Shown here: piece after piece, positions 28,414-36,822 of the stretch | How positions within the stretch are numbered: position 1 is the stretch's first letter | How the letters are laid out: every line of letters begins with the position of its first letter | NCBI RefSeq assembly: GCF_016595675.1 | Contig: NZ_JAENJH010000002.1 | Coordinates: 496,001-560,000, forward strand | Direction of reading: 5' to 3' | DNA from: Prauserella cavernicola | GTDB taxonomy: Bacteria; Actinomycetota; Actinomycetes; Mycobacteriales; Pseudonocardiaceae | DNA: 64,000 nucleotides | Notes under the pieces: generated by a model | What the model was told of the DNA's origin: nothing | Database searches by the model: none | What the model saw: only the letters and a program-made list of their open reading frames with translations | Position numbers and translations under genes: made by a program

Positions 28414-29376
28414 TCAGCTGATGAAGCCCTTCTCGATCATCCAGTCGCGGGCCACCTGAGCGGGGTCCCGTCCGTCCACATCGACTTCCTTGTTCAACTC
28501 GATGATTTCGTCGTTGTTGAGGGCCTCGGTGATCGGCGCCATCACATCGGCGATCTGCGGGTGCTGCTCGAGGAAGTCCTCACGCATGGTCACCGACGCG
28601 TTGTACTGCGGGAAGAACCGCTTGTCGTCCTCGAGCACCCGCAGGTTCAGACCCGCGATGCGCCCGTCGGTGGTGAAGACCTCACCGAAGTTGCAGGTGC
28701 CGCTCGCCACGGCACTGTAGATCGCACCGGTGCCGAACGTCTTGGTGTTGGCCACGTCGAAGCCGTATGCCTTCTGCACACCCGGCATGCCGTCGGGCCT
28801 GCTCGCGAACTCCGTCTCCACGCAGAAGACACCCTGCTGCGGGTTCTCCTTCAGGAAGTTCGTCATGTCCGTGGTGGTCTTCAGGTTGTTCTTCTCAGCG
28901 AAGGCCTCGGTGGTCGCGAACGCGTAGGTGTTGTTGACCTGCGAGTACGGCAGCCACACGATGCCGTTCTGCTCGAGGTCGGCCTTGCGCACCGCCTCGT
29001 ACTGCTCGTCCTCCTGCGCCAACGGCTTGTCGTAGCCGAGGTAGGACAGCCAGCCCGTACCGGTGTACTCCCACTGCAGGTCGATCTGACCGTCGATCAA
29101 CGCGTAGCGCGAGCTGTTGGAGCCGTTGATGTTGGTCAGGTCGATGGCGTTGGCGCCTGCCGCCTCCAGGGCGAGCTCGGCGATGTAGCCCAGGACGATC
29201 TGCTCGGTGAAGTCCTTGGAGCCGACCGTGACGTCGACGCCCTCGAGTTCGGGCACCGGCTTGATCGAGCCCGGCTGCACCTCGAACGGCAGCGCGGCGT
29301 TGACGGTGAGCCCGCACGCCGACGTGGTGGCCATCAACAGCGCGGCACCGAGGACCGCGCGCATCTTGCGCCTCAT
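28414..29376 (-). CDS. Betaine/choline-type ABC transporter substrate-binding lipoprotein
   Basis: Extracytoplasmic receptor of an OpuC/ProU-type importer. The 320 residues begin with a lipoprotein signal whose lipobox is TSACG (Cys about 21), then the OpuAC fold (VGSKDFTEQIVLGYI, LQWEYTGTGWL, RVLEDDKRFFPQY). SKDFTEQ and EYTGTGW are typical of quaternary-ammonium binders such as OpuCC. It is the last gene of the five-gene uptake operon, overlapping the permease gene by four bases. Confidence 0.93.
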   Translation of the reverse strand: MRRKMRAVLGAALLMATTSACGLTVNAALPFEVQPGSIKPVPELEGVDVTVGSKDFTEQIVLGYIAELALEAAGANAIDLTNINGSNSSRYALIDGQIDLQWEYTGTGWLSYLGYDKPLAQEDEQYEAVRKADLEQNGIVWLPYSQVNNTYAFATTEAFAEKNNLKTTTDMTNFLKENPQQGVFCVETEFASRPDGMPGVQKAYGFDVANTKTFGTGAIYSAVASGTCNFGEVFTTDGRIAGLNLRVLEDDKRFFPQYNASVTMREDFLEQHPQIADVMAPITEALNNDEIIELNKEVDVDGRDPAQVARDWMIEKGFIS

Positions 29377-30152
29377 GACAGTCCCTTCGGTCCGAGGTAC
29401 TCCTCCAGCAGCGCGCCGATCCAGTCGATCAGCAGCGCGAGCCCGACGGCCAGCACCGCGCCGACCACGAGCACCGAGACGCGGTTGAGCTTGTAGCCGG
29501 TGTCGACGAGCTCACCGAGCCCCCCGCCGTTGACGAAGAACGCCAGCGTCGCCGTACCCACGGCCAGCACCAGCGACGTGCGCAGACCCGCGAGGATCAG
29601 CGGAACCGCCAGCGGCGCCTCGATGCGGAACAGCACGCCTCGCGACGACATGCCGATACCCCGGCCCGCGTCGACCAGCGCCGGATCGACCGACTGGATG
29701 CCCACGATCGTGTTCCGCAGCACCGGGAGCAGCGAGTAGAAGGCGATCGGCAGCGCGGCCGCCCACAGCCCGTCCCACTCCGTCCACAGGAAGAACAGCA
29801 CCAGCACACCCAGCGCGGGTGCCGCCTGGCCGATGTTGGCGATGCCGATGAAGATCGGCGCGACCGGCTTGGCCCACGAGCGCGTGAGCACCATGCCCAG
29901 CGGGACGCCGATGCCGACCACGATCGCCGCGACGACGACCGTGATCAGCACGTGCTCCCACGTCTTGGCGAGCAGCACGCTCGCCTGGATGGACTCGGCC
30001 TCGATGCTGTCGTTGCTGCGGGTGAACGCCCACAGCAGCACCAGCCCGACGATCACCAGTACCGCGACCGGCTGGGCGAGCAGCCGAACCCGGTCCGCGC
30101 GACGCGAGCCTGACTCCGTCGAGAAGCCCTGGACCTTCGTCGTACTGCTCAC
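29373..30152 (-). CDS. ABC transporter permease, OpuC/ProW type (first of two)
   Basis: Membrane channel subunit of the betaine-type importer. The 259 residues have an N-terminal cytoplasmic segment, about six membrane helices and the EAA loop (DAGRGIGMSSRGVLFRIEAPLAVPLILAGLRT, about 155-185) that contacts the ATPase. It overlaps the ATPase gene and the binding-protein gene by four bases each. The other permease is at 31302, the usual two-permease layout of OpuC/OpuB systems. Confidence 0.92.
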   Translation of the reverse strand: MSSTTKVQGFSTESGSRRADRVRLLAQPVAVLVIVGLVLLWAFTRSNDSIEAESIQASVLLAKTWEHVLITVVVAAIVVGIGVPLGMVLTRSWAKPVAPIFIGIANIGQAAPALGVLVLFFLWTEWDGLWAAALPIAFYSLLPVLRNTIVGIQSVDPALVDAGRGIGMSSRGVLFRIEAPLAVPLILAGLRTSLVLAVGTATLAFFVNGGGLGELVDTGYKLNRVSVLVVGAVLAVGLALLIDWIGALLEEYLGPKGLS

Positions 30153-31309
30153 GAGGCTGCGCTCCCCGCGTCGTGCTCGTCGCGCAGCTGCTGGATCGTG
30201 TTGGTCACCGTCTCGATGTCGATGGTGCCGACGTACTCGCCGCGCGAACCCGTCACCACGGCGTTGCCGCCCTCGGACAGGATCGCCTCCAGCGCGTCCT
30301 GCAGCGTGGACTGCGTGCTCACGTTGTCGCCGACCGGCCGGCCGACCGTGGCGAGCGAGCTCGCGGTCGACAGGTCACGCACGTGCACCCAGCGCTGCGG
30401 GCGACGCCGCGCGTCCAGCACGAGCGCGTAGGTCTTGCCCTGCTCGCTCATCTGCTTGCGCAGTTCCGCGGGCGAGCTGTCCGGGGCGACGACCGTGAGC
30501 GCGTTGTCGTGGTAGTTGACATCGCGCACCCGCAGCAGCGTGAGCTGCTTGAGGGAGGCACCCGCACCCACGAATCCGGCCACCATGTCGTTGGCCGGGT
30601 TGGCGAGGATCGCCTCCGGGGTGTCGAACTGCTGGATCGTCGACTGGTCACCCAGCACGGCGATCTTGTCGCCGAGCTTCACGGCCTCGTCGAAGTCGTG
30701 GGTGACGAAGACGATCGTCTTGCGCAGCTCCAGCTGCAGGCGGAGCAGCTCGTCCTGCAGGTTGCCTCGCGTGATGGGGTCGACCGCACCGAACGGCTCG
30801 TCCATCAGCAGCACCGGCGGGTCGGCGGCGAGTGCCCTCGCCACGCCGACGCGCTGCTGCTGGCCACCGGAGAGCTGCCGGGGGAAGCGGTCGCGGTAGA
30901 CGCTCGGGTCGAGGCCGACGAGGTCCATCATCTCGTCGACCCTGTCGCCGATCTTCTTCTTCTCCCAGTCGAGCAGCCCCGGCACCACCGCGATGTTCTG
31001 CGCCACGGTGAAGTGCGGGAACAGGCCCGCCTGCTGGATCGCGTACCCGACCTTGCGGCGGAGGGCGTCGGCGTTGAGCTTGAGCGTGTCCTCACCGCCG
31101 ATCGTGATCGTGCCCGAAGTGGGCTCGATCAGGCGGTTGATCATCCGCATGGTCGTGGTCTTGCCACATCCCGAGGGGCCGACGAAGATCACGATCTTGC
31201 CGGCCGGGATCGTCATGTTGAAGTCCTTCACCGCCGGCTCCCCGGTTCCCGGGTAGCGCTTGGTGACGTTCTCCAGCTGAATCTCTGCGCCACTGACGGT
31301 CTCAGCCAC
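30149..31309 (-). CDS. ABC transporter ATPase with CBS domains, OpuCA/ProV type
   Basis: Energises the betaine-type importer. The 386 residues have Walker A GPSGCGKTT, the signature LSGGQQQR, Walker B VLLMDEPFGAVD and the switch His in VTHDFDEA, then a C-terminal pair of CBS modules (about 255-375). In OpuA-type systems the CBS pair senses ionic strength and gates transport, so this importer is likely osmotically controlled at the protein level. It overlaps the downstream permease by four and the upstream permease by eight bases. Confidence 0.95.
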   Translation of the reverse strand: MAETVSGAEIQLENVTKRYPGTGEPAVKDFNMTIPAGKIVIFVGPSGCGKTTTMRMINRLIEPTSGTITIGGEDTLKLNADALRRKVGYAIQQAGLFPHFTVAQNIAVVPGLLDWEKKKIGDRVDEMMDLVGLDPSVYRDRFPRQLSGGQQQRVGVARALAADPPVLLMDEPFGAVDPITRGNLQDELLRLQLELRKTIVFVTHDFDEAVKLGDKIAVLGDQSTIQQFDTPEAILANPANDMVAGFVGAGASLKQLTLLRVRDVNYHDNALTVVAPDSSPAELRKQMSEQGKTYALVLDARRRPQRWVHVRDLSTASSLATVGRPVGDNVSTQSTLQDALEAILSEGGNAVVTGSRGEYVGTIDIETVTNTIQQLRDEHDAGSAAS

Positions 31310-31949
31310 GGATACCCCTCGAGATGGTGAAGCGAGCGATCAGGAAATACACGCCCTCAAGAAGCAGGGCGAGGATGACGACACCGAGCGTGCCGGCGAG
31401 CGCCTGGTTGGTCGCGTTGGCGCTGCCGGCACGCGTCAGGCCCGAGAAGACCTCGCTGCCCAGGCCGGGACCCTTGGCGTAGGCCGCGATCACCGCGATG
31501 CCCATGAGCATCTGGGTGGAAACGCGCATCCCAGCAAGGATCGCCGGCCAGGCGAGTCGTAGCTCGACCCTCGTCAGCACGGAGACCCGGTTCATCCCGA
31601 TGCCCTTGGCGGCGTCGGAGATGGCCGGATCCACGCCGGCGAGGCCGACGATCGTGTTGCGCGTGATCGGCAACAGTGCGTAGAGCACCAGCGCGATCAC
31701 GGTGGGCACGGCACCCAGTCCGAAGACGGGGATGAGCAGGCCCAGCAACGCGAACGACGGAATGGTGAGGATCGTGCTGGCCAGAGCCGTCGCCACGGCG
31801 GAGCCGATCGGGCTGCGGTACACCGCAACGCCGATCAGCACGCCGATGACGGCGGCGATGAGCGTGGACTGCACGACCTCGCTGACGTGCAGCCACGCTT
31901 GCAGGGACAGCCGATCCCACCGATCGGCTACGTAGTCGAGGAGATTCAC
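31302..31949 (-). CDS. ABC transporter permease, OpuC/ProZ type (second of two)
   Basis: Second channel subunit of the importer: 215 residues, about five to six membrane helices and the EAA loop (DAAKGIGMNRVSVLTRVELRLAWPAILAGMR). It overlaps the BCCT gene by four bases upstream and the ATPase gene by eight bases downstream, so all five transport genes are one coupled unit. Confidence 0.92.
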   Translation of the reverse strand: MNLLDYVADRWDRLSLQAWLHVSEVVQSTLIAAVIGVLIGVAVYRSPIGSAVATALASTILTIPSFALLGLLIPVFGLGAVPTVIALVLYALLPITRNTIVGLAGVDPAISDAAKGIGMNRVSVLTRVELRLAWPAILAGMRVSTQMLMGIAVIAAYAKGPGLGSEVFSGLTRAGSANATNQALAGTLGVVILALLLEGVYFLIARFTISRGIRG

Positions 31950-33694
31950 GGCCTGCGGCTCCGGAACGGACGTCGACGGAGCTTCGGCTGCTCAGCAGCC
32001 CGCTCCTCGTGCATCTCTTCGAGCGATCGCATCATCTCGTCCTCCCTGATCACGAGGGGGTCGTGCCGCAGATCGCGGAACAGCGCGACACACAACGCCA
32101 CCATCACGAACACGAATGGCACCGCCACCAGGATCGTCAGGTTTTGCAGACCTGTGAGTCCGCTGTCCCCTCCGACCAGGAGCATCACGGCTGCCACCGC
32201 ACCGGTGAGCACACCCCAGAAGATGACCACGCCCTTCTTGGGCTCCACGGAGCCTCGTTGCGAGAGCGTGCCCATCACGACAGACGCGGCGTCCGCGCCC
32301 GACACGAAGAAGATCGACACCAGGAGCATCACGAGCACGGCGATCGGAATGAACCACGGCAGGTGCTGCAGCAGTTCGAACGTCGCCGCTTCCTCGCCAC
32401 CCGCACCGGCGATGTCCACACCGTTGCGTTGCTGGTCGATGGCGGCGCCACCGAAGATCGCGAACCAGACCAGGCTGACCACACTCGGCACCGCGATGAC
32501 GCCGATGATGAACTGCCGGATCGAGCGGCCACGCGAGATGCGGGCGATGAACATGCCGACGAAGGGCGTCCAGGAGATCCACCAGGCCCAGTAGAAGACG
32601 GTCCAGCCGCCCAACCAGGTCTGCATCTCCTCGCCACCGGTCACACCACTGCGGCCCGACATCTCCGCGAGCTCGCGGAAGTAGTCGCCGATGGCATTGG
32701 GCACGAGGTTGAGGATCAGCACCGTCGGGCCGACGACCAGCACGAACAGCGCGAGCACCGCCGCGAGCACCATGTTGATGTTGGACAGCCACTGGATGCC
32801 CTTGGCGACACCGGAGACGGCCGAGGCGATGAACGCCACGGTCAGCAGCGCGATGATGCCGACCAGCAGGCCGGTGCCCGGGTTGTCGATCCAGTCGACA
32901 GCGGCCATGCCACCGCCGACCTGCAGCGCACCGAGACCCAGCGATGCGGCGGAGCCGAACAGCGTCGCGAAGATGGCCATGACGTCGATGGCCTTGCCCA
33001 GCGGGCCCTCACTGCGCGACTTGCCGATGAGCGGAGCGAACACCGCACTGATCAGCTGCGAACGGCCGCGGCGGAAGGTGCTGTAGGCGATGGCCAGACC
33101 GACGACCGCGTAGATCGCCCACGGGTGGACGGTCCAGTGGAACAGCGTCGTGGCCATAGCGGTGTGCACGGCCTCGTCGGAGAGCGGCGCGGCGCTACCG
33201 GGAGGCGGGCTCGCGAGGTGCGAGACCGGCTCGTAGACACCGAAGAACATCAGGCCGATGCCCATACCGGCGCTGAACATCATGGCGATCCACGATGACG
33301 TCCGGAACTCGGGCTTCTCGTCGTCCTTGCCCAGCCGGATCCGGCCGTAACGGCTGATCGCGATACAGACCGCGAAGATCACGAAACCGCTGGCGGTGAG
33401 CACGAAGGCCCAGCCGCCGTAAGGGATGACCGCCTCGTTCAGCAACGTGCTCGACACGTCGGCGAGGCTGGTCGGTGAAAGAACTCCCCAGATCACGATA
33501 ACGAGTGCCAGAGCCGCGGCGATACCGAAGACGAGGCGGTCTGTGCTCGCCGGCTTGTCAGCGGCGACGACGGGAGGCACGTGCTCGTCGGGATCCGGCG
33601 TTGCGGCGGCGGCGCCGGTTTCCTCCGGCGCGTCTGCCGGATCTTCCACCGCCGTTCCAGCTGTCACCCTGTCTTCTTCAGAGTCTTCAGACAT
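31946..33694 (-). CDS. BCCT-family betaine/carnitine/choline transporter
   Basis: Sodium- or proton-coupled uptake of quaternary amines. The 582 residues have a hydrophilic acidic N-tail (about 1-50), about twelve membrane helices and the family signatures GMGIGLMFFGVYEPVSHL and WTVFYWAWWISWTPFVGMFIARISRGR (tryptophan box of the substrate site), with a charged C-tail that may act in osmosensing as in BetP. I chose the ATG two codons inside a possible GTG, because GGAGG then has a normal nine-base spacing instead of three. That GGAGG lies in a hairpin (see the leader entry), which would limit translation. First gene of the five-gene osmolyte uptake operon. Confidence 0.93.
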   Translation of the reverse strand: MSEDSEEDRVTAGTAVEDPADAPEETGAAAATPDPDEHVPPVVAADKPASTDRLVFGIAAALALVIVIWGVLSPTSLADVSSTLLNEAVIPYGGWAFVLTASGFVIFAVCIAISRYGRIRLGKDDEKPEFRTSSWIAMMFSAGMGIGLMFFGVYEPVSHLASPPPGSAAPLSDEAVHTAMATTLFHWTVHPWAIYAVVGLAIAYSTFRRGRSQLISAVFAPLIGKSRSEGPLGKAIDVMAIFATLFGSAASLGLGALQVGGGMAAVDWIDNPGTGLLVGIIALLTVAFIASAVSGVAKGIQWLSNINMVLAAVLALFVLVVGPTVLILNLVPNAIGDYFRELAEMSGRSGVTGGEEMQTWLGGWTVFYWAWWISWTPFVGMFIARISRGRSIRQFIIGVIAVPSVVSLVWFAIFGGAAIDQQRNGVDIAGAGGEEAATFELLQHLPWFIPIAVLVMLLVSIFFVSGADAASVVMGTLSQRGSVEPKKGVVIFWGVLTGAVAAVMLLVGGDSGLTGLQNLTILVAVPFVFVMVALCVALFRDLRHDPLVIREDEMMRSLEEMHEERAAEQPKLRRRPFRSRRP

Positions 33695-33729
33695 ATGCAC
33701 GCACCTCCGTTGGAGGCGCGGCCTCCTTT
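33695..33729 (-). promoter_or_regulatory. Leader of the BCCT gene with two mutually exclusive hairpins over the ribosome site
   Basis: Read on the minus strand: element 1 GGAGGC (33726-33721), then CGC, element 2 GCCTCC (33717-33712), then AAC, element 3 GGAGG (33708-33704), which is the ribosome site for the ATG at 33694. Element 2 can pair with element 1 (six pairs, three-base loop) or with element 3; the second hairpin extends through 33720/33700 to nine pairs including one G-U and hides the ribosome site. This is the layout of a translational on/off switch. No ligand-binding aptamer is recognised. Sequence complementarity is certain; the regulatory role is inferred. Confidence 0.5.
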
Positions 33730-33736
33730 CGTACCC

Positions 33737-33756
33737 GTTAACCCGACCGGGTTAAC
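33737..33756. promoter_or_regulatory. Perfect 9-2-9 palindrome upstream of the osmolyte uptake operon
   Basis: Arms GTTAACCCG and CGGGTTAAC around AC, 43 bases before the BCCT start codon, in a spot where an operator would overlap the promoter. The size suits a homodimeric TetR-, GntR- or MarR-type repressor. A second, shorter inverted repeat (GGCAA-ACG-TTGCC, 33769-33781) lies just upstream. No dedicated regulator gene is adjacent, so the binding protein is unknown. Confidence 0.55.
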
Positions 33757-33948
33757 ACCCTAGGCCCTGGCAAACGTTGCCCAGTCACTGCCGGTGCACC
33801 CCCGGGGCCTTCGATGTGGACATACCGTTGCCTATCCAGCAGAAATCAGCAACAAGAGATGCACGAAACGTTGCGAAGTTTCGACAATCGCAATACAGCG
33901 CCCGGGGAGTGCGACAGCCCGCCGGTCAGCTTCCCATACCCTGTGCGA

Positions 33949-34473
33949 GTGAGCAGCTCATCGCCATCTCGCGCAGCGTTACCGACCGCGCGCGGCGTTC
34001 TGCTCGCCACCTCATCGGCGGCATTGGCGATCAGTGCGCACGGCAGCGCCGACGGTGAATTCCCGCACCTCACGACCACAATTCTGCTGACAGCGGTGAT
34101 CGGCTGGGCGGCCACGGCTGCCGCAGATCGCACGCGTGGCGTGGCCGGGGTCCTGCTCGTGCTCGGCAGTGCGCAACTGGCGATGCACCTGGTGCTCACC
34201 GAGCTCTCCGACCACGCGGCAGGCGGCATGGGCATGACGCTCGCGCACGTCGTGGCCACCGTGGTCACCGCACTGCTGCTCGCTCACGCGGAGTCGATGC
34301 TGCTGGCCGCGGTGGCGACGCTGTACCTGTTTTTGCCGCTGGTGTGGTCCGCGCCTCCGGTGCCTTCGGCCACACCTGGTCGCACGGTGGTGCGTCCCGC
34401 GGGCGGGGTCGCGTTCGCGGAGGTGCTCCTGCGCCGGGTTCACGGCAGGCGCGGGCCGCCCGTTCTGTCCTGA
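33949..34473 (+). CDS. Small polytopic membrane protein at the head of a copper-type module
   Basis: Not a named family that I recognise. About 174 residues with five hydrophobic segments, and loops that carry His and Met (SAHGSADGEFPH, LSDHAAGGMGMTLAH), which would suit metal binding. It precedes ycnI by 53 bases on the same strand. Two in-frame GTG codons (33943 and 33949) are possible starts and neither has a ribosome site; CATACC 10-15 bases upstream could be a -10 element of a leaderless message. The role in copper handling is inferred only from the YcnI-CopC-CopD neighbours. Confidence 0.65.
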   Translation: MSSSSPSRAALPTARGVLLATSSAALAISAHGSADGEFPHLTTTILLTAVIGWAATAAADRTRGVAGVLLVLGSAQLAMHLVLTELSDHAAGGMGMTLAHVVATVVTALLLAHAESMLLAAVATLYLFLPLVWSAPPVPSATPGRTVVRPAGGVAFAEVLLRRVHGRRGPPVLS

Positions 34474-34526
34474 ACAGCCGATTCGAAGTCCTCGAAGGAC
34501 CACTTCATTCAGGAGAGAACACCCCA

Positions 34527-35231
34527 ATGTCGACACATCAATTCTTCCGGCGCGCCCTCGTGCTCTCGGCGACGCTCGGCGCCACCGGTCTCATGACGGC
34601 AGGCGTCGCGTCCGCGCACGTCACCGCCGACGTCTACGGCAGCCAGCCGGAGAAGGGCGGCTACGGCTCCGTCGTGCTCCGCGTGCCCAACGAAGAGGAG
34701 CAGGCAGGCACAGTCAAGGTCGAGGTCACCATCCCGGCCGACTACGCGATCAGCTCCGCGCGCACCAAACCCGTGCCCGGCTGGACCGCCGAGGTCACCA
34801 AGCAGGACGTGGTCAGCAAGATCACCTGGACCGCGGAGCGCGGCAGCGAGATCCCGGCAGGAACCACCTCCTACCAGGAGTTCTCGTTCACGGCGGGACC
34901 GCTGCCCGAGGACGTGGACACGCTCGTGCTGGCCACCGCGCAGACCTACTCGGACGGCACGGTCTCGAACTGGAACGAGGAGCCACAGGGCGGCGAGGAG
35001 CCGGACAGCCCGGCTCCCACGGTCGAACTGGCCGAGTCCTCCGGCGGCGGACACGGGCACGGCGCCGAGCACGCGTCGGCCGAGTCCGCCGAGGCCGAGG
35101 ACACGGCGGCGGCGTCCTCCAGCGACGACACCGCCCGGTGGCTCGGCGGAGCCGGACTCGCCGTCGGCGCGCTCGGCCTCGGCGTCGGCGCGGGCGCCAT
35201 CATCGTCGCTCGCAAGAGGACGCGGTCGTGA
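34527..35231 (+). CDS. YcnI-family (DUF1775) copper-type exported protein
   Basis: The 234 residues have a Sec signal peptide ending ASA, so the mature protein starts His-Val-Thr; an N-terminal histidine is the copper ligand in YcnI/DUF1775 proteins. The DUF1775 domain follows (VVLRVPNEEEQAGTVKVEV, to about 150), then a His/Glu/Ala-rich linker (GGGHGHGAEHAS) that could bind metal, one C-terminal membrane helix and a basic tail. AGGAG is ten bases before the ATG. The stop overlaps the CopC gene start by four bases (GTGA). Confidence 0.9.
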   Translation: MSTHQFFRRALVLSATLGATGLMTAGVASAHVTADVYGSQPEKGGYGSVVLRVPNEEEQAGTVKVEVTIPADYAISSARTKPVPGWTAEVTKQDVVSKITWTAERGSEIPAGTTSYQEFSFTAGPLPEDVDTLVLATAQTYSDGTVSNWNEEPQGGEEPDSPAPTVELAESSGGGHGHGAEHASAESAEAEDTAAASSSDDTARWLGGAGLAVGALGLGVGAGAIIVARKRTRS

Positions 35232-35797
35232 GGCGCGCGCTGGTCGTCGCGGGCGTCGCCCTGCTGGCGCTGCTCGGCGCGGCCGGGCCCGCGTCCGCGC
35301 ACAACACGCTCATCTCGTCCGACCCCGCCGAAGGGGCCAGCCTCGACTCGGCGCCGAGCACCATCACGCTGACGTTCGACCAGGACGTGCAGCAAGCCCA
35401 GGTCAACGAGGTGGCGGTCACCGGACCCGACGGCAGGCAGTACGGCGAGGGCACGGTCGAGGTCAACCGCAACGTGGTGACCTCGCAGGTCCAGCCGCTC
35501 GGTCCCGCCGGCGAGTACGTGATCGGCTTCCGGGTCCTCTCCGCCGACGGACACCCGGTGTCGGAGGAGATCCGGTTCACGCTCACCGCGGCAGGTCAGG
35601 GCACGGGAGCGCCGTCCTCGCCCGAGGCGGGCGCGTCCTCGGGGCAGGACACGCCCGCGCAGCAGGCGAACCAGGGCCAGGACGGTGACTCGTCGTCCGG
35701 CGTGCCGGTGTGGGTGTGGATCGTCGCCGCGGTGGTGCTGCTGCTCGCCGGTGTGACGGTCGCGCTGCGCATGGGTTCGTCCTCGGAGGACAAGTAG
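35228..35797 (+). CDS. CopC-domain copper-binding protein
   Basis: The 189 residues have a signal peptide ending ASA followed by HNTLISSDPAEGA, the standard start of the CopC beta-barrel with His as the first copper ligand; the later SADGHPVSEE segment is also typical. A Gly/Ser/Gln linker leads to a C-terminal membrane helix (VWVWIVAAVVLLLAGVTVAL), so the protein is tethered outside the membrane. Placed between YcnI and the CopD-type membrane protein. Expected to pass Cu to CopD or store it. Confidence 0.92.
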   Translation: MRRALVVAGVALLALLGAAGPASAHNTLISSDPAEGASLDSAPSTITLTFDQDVQQAQVNEVAVTGPDGRQYGEGTVEVNRNVVTSQVQPLGPAGEYVIGFRVLSADGHPVSEEIRFTLTAAGQGTGAPSSPEAGASSGQDTPAQQANQGQDGDSSSGVPVWVWIVAAVVLLLAGVTVALRMGSSSEDK

Positions 35798-35799
35798 TC

Positions 35800-36822
35800 A
35801 TGACCAGAGCCGAGACCACCTCGCCGCCCAGGGTGGGCGTGCTGATCAGCGTGCTCGCCGCCGCGCTCGCCGGTGTCGGAATCGGCATCGCGCTGACGGC
35901 GACCGCTCCGGTCAGCGGTGTCACCCAGGTCAGCGGGGTGGTCTCGGTCGGCATCCCGATCGTGCGGGTGCTGCTCGACATCGCCGCGGTGACGGCCATC
36001 GGCCTCGCACTGCTGTCGGTGCTGGTCGGCTACGACCGGCCCAAGCTCACCGATCCGGTGCTGCGCAAGGCCAGGCCCGCCGCGGTGATCGCCGCGCTGG
36101 TCTGGGCGGTGACCTCGCTGATCACGCTCGTGCTCCAGACCGCCGAGTACAACCCCGGCAAGGGTGCGGTCGGCCTGGGCGACATCGCGGACTACGTGGT
36201 GGCGGTCGGCGCGGGCAAGGCCCTGCTCATCGTCGCCGTGCTCGCGCTGGGCCTGACGGCCCTGAACATGCTCACACTGCGGCACGGCGAGAAGGTTCCC
36301 GCCGAGGTCAGGGTGGGGCTCGGCCTGTTCGCGCTGCTGCCGTTGCCGGTCACGGGGCACGCGTCGAACTGGTCGTTCCACGACTACACGATGATCTCGA
36401 TGGAGCTGCACGTGATGAGCGCCGTCGCCTGGACCGGCGGCCTCGGTGCCATGGCGACGCTGCTGATCGGCAACCGAACGCTGCTCGCCTACGCGCTGCC
36501 CCGCTTCTCCAAGCTCGCGACGCTGTGCCTGGCGATCTCGGCGGCGACCGGCCTGTTCAACGGGATCGTCGAGGCCAACCTCAACCCGACGATGGACCTC
36601 TGGACGGCGCTGTTCACCACGCCGTACGGCCAGCTCGTGCTGCTCAAGCTCGCCTGCACGGTGGCGATCGCGGGTCTCGGCGCCTACACCCGCTGGCGGC
36701 TGCTGCCCAGGATCATGCGGCACCAGCGCACCGCGCTGGCGACGTGGGCGACGCTGGAGCTGACCGTCATGGGACTCGCCTTTGGCTTCGCGGTGGTGCT
36801 CACGCGCGCGCCCGTCGCCTGA
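35800..36822 (+). CDS. CopD-domain membrane protein
   Basis: Membrane component of CopC/CopD copper import. The 340 residues contain about nine membrane helices; the CopD part (about 175-335) includes GHASNWSFHDYTMISMELHVMSAVAWTGGLGAM with the conserved histidines and tryptophan. It follows CopC by two bases and ends the YcnI-CopC-CopD unit. In many actinobacteria this trio supplies copper to respiratory or secreted enzymes. Confidence 0.9.
   Translation: MTRAETTSPPRVGVLISVLAAALAGVGIGIALTATAPVSGVTQVSGVVSVGIPIVRVLLDIAAVTAIGLALLSVLVGYDRPKLTDPVLRKARPAAVIAALVWAVTSLITLVLQTAEYNPGKGAVGLGDIADYVVAVGAGKALLIVAVLALGLTALNMLTLRHGEKVPAEVRVGLGLFALLPLPVTGHASNWSFHDYTMISMELHVMSAVAWTGGLGAMATLLIGNRTLLAYALPRFSKLATLCLAISAATGLFNGIVEANLNPTMDLWTALFTTPYGQLVLLKLACTVAIAGLGAYTRWRLLPRIMRHQRTALATWATLELTVMGLAFGFAVVLTRAPVA

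Follow-up and report, generated by a model that had tools for sequence, protein, structure and literature searches.

The window, i.e., the whole 64,000-nt stretch of Prauserella cavernicola DNA that was analyzed (assembly GCF_016595675.1, contig NZ_JAENJH010000002.1, positions 496,001 to 560,000), harbors on its minus strand a BCCT family transporter gene together with genes of an ABC transporter, i.e., two permeases, a ProV-like ATPase and an OpuAC substrate-binding protein (Table 1). This gene content is that of the BCCT-ABC osmolyte uptake operon named in a preliminary description of the locus. The divergent neighbors on the plus strand (34344-36822) presumably constitute a YcnI-CopC-CopD copper cluster, as judged from their translations. 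The perfect palindrome found upstream of the BCCT gene, GTTAACCCG-GT-CGGGTTAAC, is the sole copy in the genome, also when up to 2 mismatches are allowed. By eye, one half of the palindrome, CGGGTTA-like, recurs in several genera and is similar to the SigB-like -10 element of genus g16. Next to the palindrome, TAGGGT, TAGGTT or TATGGT is seen by eye at the same position in several genera; with this candidate -10 element, the transcript start would fall upstream of the Shine-Dalgarno (SD) sequence discussed below. A sigma-70 scan found no promoter, and inspection by eye yielded no convincing placement of SigB-type -35/-10 elements in the window's genus.

Table 1. Genes and leader features at the BCCT locus (positions in the window)
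Feature	Position	Strand	Basis or remark
BCCT family transporter gene, ATG 33694	31946..33694	(-)	TIGR00842 530.5 bits (cut-off 407.55); Pfam BCCT 585.4 bits
ABC permease	31302..31949	(-)	
ABC ATPase, ProV-like	30149..31309	(-)	just below its NCBIfam cut-off
ABC permease (second)	29373..30152	(-)	
OpuAC substrate-binding protein	28420..29376, start approximate	(-)	Pfam OpuAC 214.6 bits
BCCT start codon ATG	33694-33692	(-)	
Linker TGCAT, hairpin to start codon	33695..33699	(-)	effective spacing 6 nt together with C33721
Spacer hairpin 3' arm GGAGGTGCG, no conserved SD	33700..33708	(-)	orthologues keep pairing here, not GGAGG
Right element GGAGG	33708-33704	(-)	read from sequence; inside hairpin 3' arm
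Hairpin loop AAC	33709..33711	(-)	folding
Spacer hairpin 5' arm CGCGCCTCC	33712..33720	(-)	folding; compensatory changes in orthologues
Middle element GCCTCC	33717-33712	(-)	read from sequence; inside hairpin 5' arm
Left element GGAGGC	33726-33721	(-)	read from sequence; overlaps AAAGGAGG
Putative true SD AAAGGAGG, equivalent to the left element	33722..33729	(-)	SD kept in orthologue leaders
Perfect 9-2-9 palindrome	33737..33756	(-)	candidate operator or promoter part
TAGGGT, possible -10 element	33757..33762	(-)	by eye

The preliminary description had pointed to three short elements standing in a row before the BCCT start codon, and these are indeed found on the minus strand at 33726-33704. 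Read 5' to 3' on this strand, the leader is AAA-GGAGGC-CGC-GCCTCC-AAC-GGAGG-TGCGTGCAT-ATG, or, over a wider region, GTTAACCCGGTCGGGTTAAC GGGTACG AAAGGAGG C CGCGCCTCC AAC GGAGGTGCG TGCAT ATG. The middle element can, as had been stated, pair with either neighbor; both stems were found upon folding the leader. The best fold holds the middle-right stem, for which the nine pairs described earlier were recovered, i.e., CGCGCCTCC with GGAGGTGCG, with a predicted free energy of -15.0 kcal/mol at 37 °C; the left-middle stem has six pairs and a predicted -10.6 kcal/mol at the same temperature. Only 2 of 200 dinucleotide shuffles of the 40-nt leader fold as well or better (z -2.9), and the corresponding z values for longer stretches are -2.8 (47 nt), -1.8 (66 nt), -2.4 (101 nt) and -1.0 (141 nt). 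A search of Rfam revealed no family at gathering score in the leader and, for 33640-33900, none with an E value of 5 or less, in agreement with the earlier remark that no known riboswitch class is recognized.

The sequence GGCTGGATCACCTCCTTT occurs once in the genome, and we take it to be the 16S 3' tail, in which CCTCCTTT complements AAAGGAGG. From this SD to the ATG the distance is 27 nt along the linear sequence and 6 nt with the hairpin folded. The openness of the SD in the fold ensemble is 0.52, where two extra pairs touch its last base. A small upstream ORF starting at the SD was considered and dropped because inspection by eye gave no ATG or GTG within 4-16 nt in the window. Neither a second copy of the leader nor the exact CGCGCC/GGCGCG pattern, from which the window's own 3' arm differs, was found in the genome, and the plasmid records also lack a match to the leader.

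A family search gave a BCCT match at 1e-100 in 225 of 297 genomes, and 90 BCCT loci of the family were examined, 46 at an identity of at least 74% and 44 more distant. Leaders in which a hairpin separates SD and start codon, here referred to as split sites, were selected by a script whose criteria were the presence of a hairpin and 3-12 nt of effective spacing (counted with the hairpin folded), with start codons inferred; by hand, the script's pick for locus L113 was rejected and the start of L104 was shifted. This order of SD, hairpin and start is found in 38 of the 46 closer loci (37 by script, L125 by eye). The eight without a split site all belong to genus g24, and six of these have GGAGG at 9-10 nt from the ATG. 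The script found the arrangement in 15 of the 44 more distant loci; five g5 loci have the hairpin behind a weaker SD (two of the five are poor), the SD of three g22 loci and of L173 lies 6-8 nt from the start, and the class of L170 is uncertain. The two closest sisters of the window, which read AAAGGAGG-C-CGCGCCTC-CTC-GAGGCGCG-TGCAT-ATG (L003) and AAAGGAGG-C-CGCGCCTC-CAC-GAGGCGCG-TGCGT-ATG (L004), have kept the left SD and the hairpin and have lost the right GGAGG.

Of 78 further loci from outside the family search, 15 score with a loose detector, and convincing cases are found in Actinopolyspora (L080), Saccharopolyspora (L018), Actinomycetospora (L019 and L024), Modestobacter (L020 and L056), Kribbella (L027), Allosalinactinospora (L087) and Pseudonocardia (L010 and L031). 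A perfect-stem scan, in which 11 of 80 loci score, adds Blastococcus L017, and Modestobacter L042 was recognized by eye. L008, L009 and L010 lie on contigs equal in length to those of L121, L125 and L161, and are probably the same places. The largest hairpin among the leaders judged convincing is that of Actinomycetospora chibensis (L019, 2887-2937), which is 33 nt long and lies between SD and ATG, with a stem of 14 pairs, a predicted -27 kcal/mol and an effective spacing of 10. Within Actinopolyspora, L080 has the split site and Actinopolyspora righensis L071 is without it. No convincing split site was found at the Streptomyces and Mycolicibacterium loci; the Streptomyces detector matches L037, L057, L064 and L070 sit at doubtful starts and were not counted. 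Many soil actinobacteria appear to keep a hairpin-bridged SD upstream of this osmolyte-uptake gene, with pairing conserved over sequence.

The 44 distinct spacers collected from 14 genera have a linear SD-start distance of 20-34 nt (sd 3.5) and an effective distance of 4-13 nt (mean 7.3, sd 2.3). The picking rule required a hairpin and 3-12 nt, which in part builds in the narrow effective spacing and the pairing percentage given below; for shuffled spacers passing the same rule, the sd of the effective spacing is 2.9-3.0 compared to the observed 2.3. Genus g15 tends to the upper end, with 9-13 nt in 9 of its 12 distinct spacers. A rightly placed stem of at least 6 pairs is found in 42 of the 44 spacers as compared to 12.3% of shuffled spacers. 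When the 44 rows, which were chosen for having hairpins, a choice that favors this figure, were aligned (alignment A1), the six core pairs were paired in 98.5% of cells; with the partner slid, the value dropped to 21-70%. Covariation in A1 is 0.257 compared to 0.146 after shuffling, and this level was reached by none of 500 shuffles; both-side changes occur at 3 pairs, a count that is unremarkable since 54 of the 500 shuffles reach it.

An alignment of orthologous leaders had been proposed earlier as a means to look for compensating changes, and such changes are found in the stem arms over the 14 genera, with the left SD constant. The stems read, for example, CGCGCT/AGCGCG in genus g44, ACGCGTCCGTC/GACGGGCGTGT in g33, GGCGCC/GGCGCC in g16, CGGCGTCT/GGACGCCG in g25 and CGGCGTCC/GGACGCCG in g13. 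Also in diverged genera, the hairpin directly follows the SD and is itself followed, after a few bases, by the start codon. Mid-stem positions hardly vary among orthologues, in sequence as well as in pairing; the outer and inner pairs, the stem length (5-11 pairs) and the loop vary among genera. Better folding than that of shuffles (p 0.05) is seen for 31 of the 44 spacers, and 13, from GC-rich genomes, do not reach this level. The stem probability is at least 0.5 in 38 of 42 leaders (it is lower in L097, L102, L103 and L133), the start codon is open in the fold ensemble in 37 of 43 leaders, and the openness of the SD is moderate (mean 0.57; at least 0.5 in 31 of 43 leaders).

Among the other genes examined the arrangement is rare. 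The controls comprised 628 predicted genes of three genomes, or 626 after removal of two BCCT genes. The loose detector, which missed one g26 locus and L125, selected 59 of the 90 BCCT loci, five of them weak or doubtful matches (L122, L132, L158, L170 and L172), as compared to 40 of the 626 other genes, of which 30 lie more than 15 codons inside the frame. The perfect-stem rule is passed by 14 of the 626, and 10 of these 14 are again more than 15 codons inside the frame. A covariance model applied to the window's own genome (150 of 32152 first-look candidates scored) gave as its best match the window site at 40.4 bits and E 7.8e-4; one other match at E of at most 5 among the same 150 lies, by eye, seemingly within a coding region. 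In 60 relatives (113 first-look candidates scored per relative), 9 of 11 matches are BCCT leaders, the remaining two being L220 and L224. The model missed G018, G022 and G031, which are split according to the script.

This arrangement is probably a split (also named accommodated) ribosome binding site, where the hairpin would set the spacing between SD and ATG. The SD AAAGGAGG is strong and, as in the orthologues, located well past the usual distance, at which it would be beyond the reach of normal initiation. The gap is occupied by a stable, GC-rich hairpin, which would place SD and ATG at a distance of about 6 nt, i.e., within the 5-11 nt expected for a folded split site, an agreement that is partly built into the picking rule. 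The hairpin would then stay folded and be looped out while the 30S subunit, paired with the SD, reaches the ATG. Since a loss of pairing would bring back the long spacing, the hairpin would be kept by selection. We infer that the left SD is used by ribosomes, for which the hairpin is no obstacle, and that its main role is constitutive spacing rather than sensing. As a counterpoint, the right GGAGG of the window is also at a usable distance, should the stem open.

Sites in which an SD too distant from the start is brought closer by an intervening hairpin are known for phage T4; in PMC3014915, the SD-AUG distance is given as shortened by a hairpin from 22 to 5 nt for gene 38 and from 27 to 11 nt for gene 25, and both are reported to work in this way. 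The gene 25 hairpin is described there as present in close T-even phages and absent from distant ones (PMC3014915). The BCCT leader resembles these sites, but it belongs to a chromosomal actinobacterial osmolyte transporter, has GC-rich stems of 5-11 pairs (14 in L019), extends over many genera with compensatory changes, and is known here from sequence and folding. One bacterial gene family seems to keep across many actinobacterial genera what the T4 account (PMC3014915) describes for a phage. For the split site of E. coli thrS, a long hairpin is reported to be accommodated by the ribosome in its folded state; the hairpins in that case are modeled as upstream standby-site modules (PMC3936740), whereas the BCCT hairpin sits between SD and start. 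Five nucleotides is given as the preferred aligned spacing in PMC3936740. Among the open-access papers covered by the search, no such site was apparent in an actinobacterial or an osmolyte-transport gene. Predictors of start sites or expression whose scores rely on the linear SD distance will get such genes wrong, and the BCCT leader offers a readily testable system.

The preliminary description had interpreted the leader as a two-state switch, in which the middle-right stem hides an SD in the right element (OFF), the left-middle pairing frees it (ON) and salt or temperature moves the balance. The conserved RNA structure at the ribosome site and the either-way pairing, an option that two sister species share with the window, stand; the masking of the ribosome site by the stem does not, because the constant element in orthologues is the left AAGGAGG, and the right GGAGG, which is not conserved, is merely part of the 3' arm of the hairpin. 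The sign of the switch would even be reversed, as left-middle pairing would block the presumed true SD. Two-state logic needs CCTCC in the spacer and is not general, since this sequence is limited to 3 of 43 distinct leaders, all of the window's genus. Folding of 50-58 nt prefixes (from an assumed transcript start at 33760) does give the left-middle stem, which is also the predicted minimum at 4 °C only, but at 37 °C the right stem is better by 4.4 kcal/mol, and in the folding model it is the dominant form between 20 and 65 °C. RNA thermometers and SD-sequestering leaders place a short stem at the ribosome site. The BCCT leader shares this stem, but differs from thermometers, where the SD in use is inside a stem that opens in the growth temperature range, in that the conserved SD is outside the stem, the modeled stem persists at 20 to 65 °C and no Rfam family matches. 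With the presumed true SD outside a hairpin that is dominant over these temperatures, a salt or temperature switch finds little support, and we regard the switch as originally proposed as highly improbable. Unlikely, and compatible with a split site, is a reversed switch confined to the window's genus, where left-middle pairing would hide the true SD (OFF) and the middle-right hairpin would both free the SD and set the spacing (ON), with the balance moved by folding during transcription or by cold. The modeled prefix and 4 °C folds and the presence of GCCTCC in three of the four genomes searched of this genus are consistent with such a switch; however, the fourth genome (L005) lacks GCCTCC, the OFF state is not the predicted minimum at temperatures of at least 20 °C, and the motif may be a chance outcome of stem extension by CTCC/GGAG.

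The near-invariant sequence of the mid-stem, beyond pairing alone, and the genome-unique palindrome just upstream would also fit a hairpin that serves as a regulator's DNA or RNA binding site or as an mRNA stability element, its place between SD and start being incidental. We consider this unlikely, as the outer and inner pairs, the stem length and the loop differ among genera, and in genera that lack the hairpin the SD is normal or the start is predicted to be leaderless. That the hairpin arose by chance in GC-rich DNA next to a misplaced start codon seems extremely improbable: some other genes do pass the loose detector, and more than a tenth of shuffled spacers contain a fitting stem of 6 pairs, but about two-thirds of the BCCT loci score with that detector, the perfect-stem rule leaves few other genes, mostly deep inside the frame, and the stem covaries in A1. 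It is, finally, conceivable though very unlikely that the hairpin spacer acts as an osmotic gauge, folded by the rise in potassium after osmotic shock and loosened by accumulated betaine, such that the product of uptake would lengthen the spacing of its own ribosome site and turn translation down. If so, the leader would be a direct, protein-free feedback sensor that operates via spacing instead of SD masking.

Other genera appear to initiate at the same gene by other means. The pattern GTTT-N16-GGGTA/GGGAA, whose likeness to SigB promoters is based on PMC8346170, precedes the first in-frame start by 10-11 nt in 16 of 16 g21 loci (L130, L131, L134-L139, L141, L143, L146, L150, L156, L160, L165 and L171) and in 3 of 3 g8 loci (L166, L168 and L172). 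Because this element lies so close to the start, the BCCT genes of g21 and g8 are predicted to yield leaderless mRNAs under a stress sigma factor; in 4 of the 16 g21 loci, an SD-like word is within range as well. A similar GTTT-N16-GGGTA is located upstream of an ordinary SD in the three g22 loci, and the five g16 loci combine a SigB-like element 70 nt before the start with a split site.

A FastTree tree was built from 92 of 129 BCCT proteins; 37 proteins (mostly close relatives, many of them from Streptomyces) were omitted by manual choice, after L028, a one-residue frame, had been dropped. With L009, L011 and L042 labeled split by eye and L243 (g5) by its weaker SD, the split label requires 11 changes on the tree as compared to 31.2 for shuffled labels. 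The window's clade has 43 rows and a support of 91, and 33 of its rows are split. We infer that the split site is old in this clade and that several losses or gains followed. Sister genera in which this gene has an ordinary SD, or a start predicted to be leaderless, constitute a natural experiment on the replacement of one initiation mode by another, and the predicted-leaderless genera g21 and g8 adjoin the split-site genus g29 in the tree.
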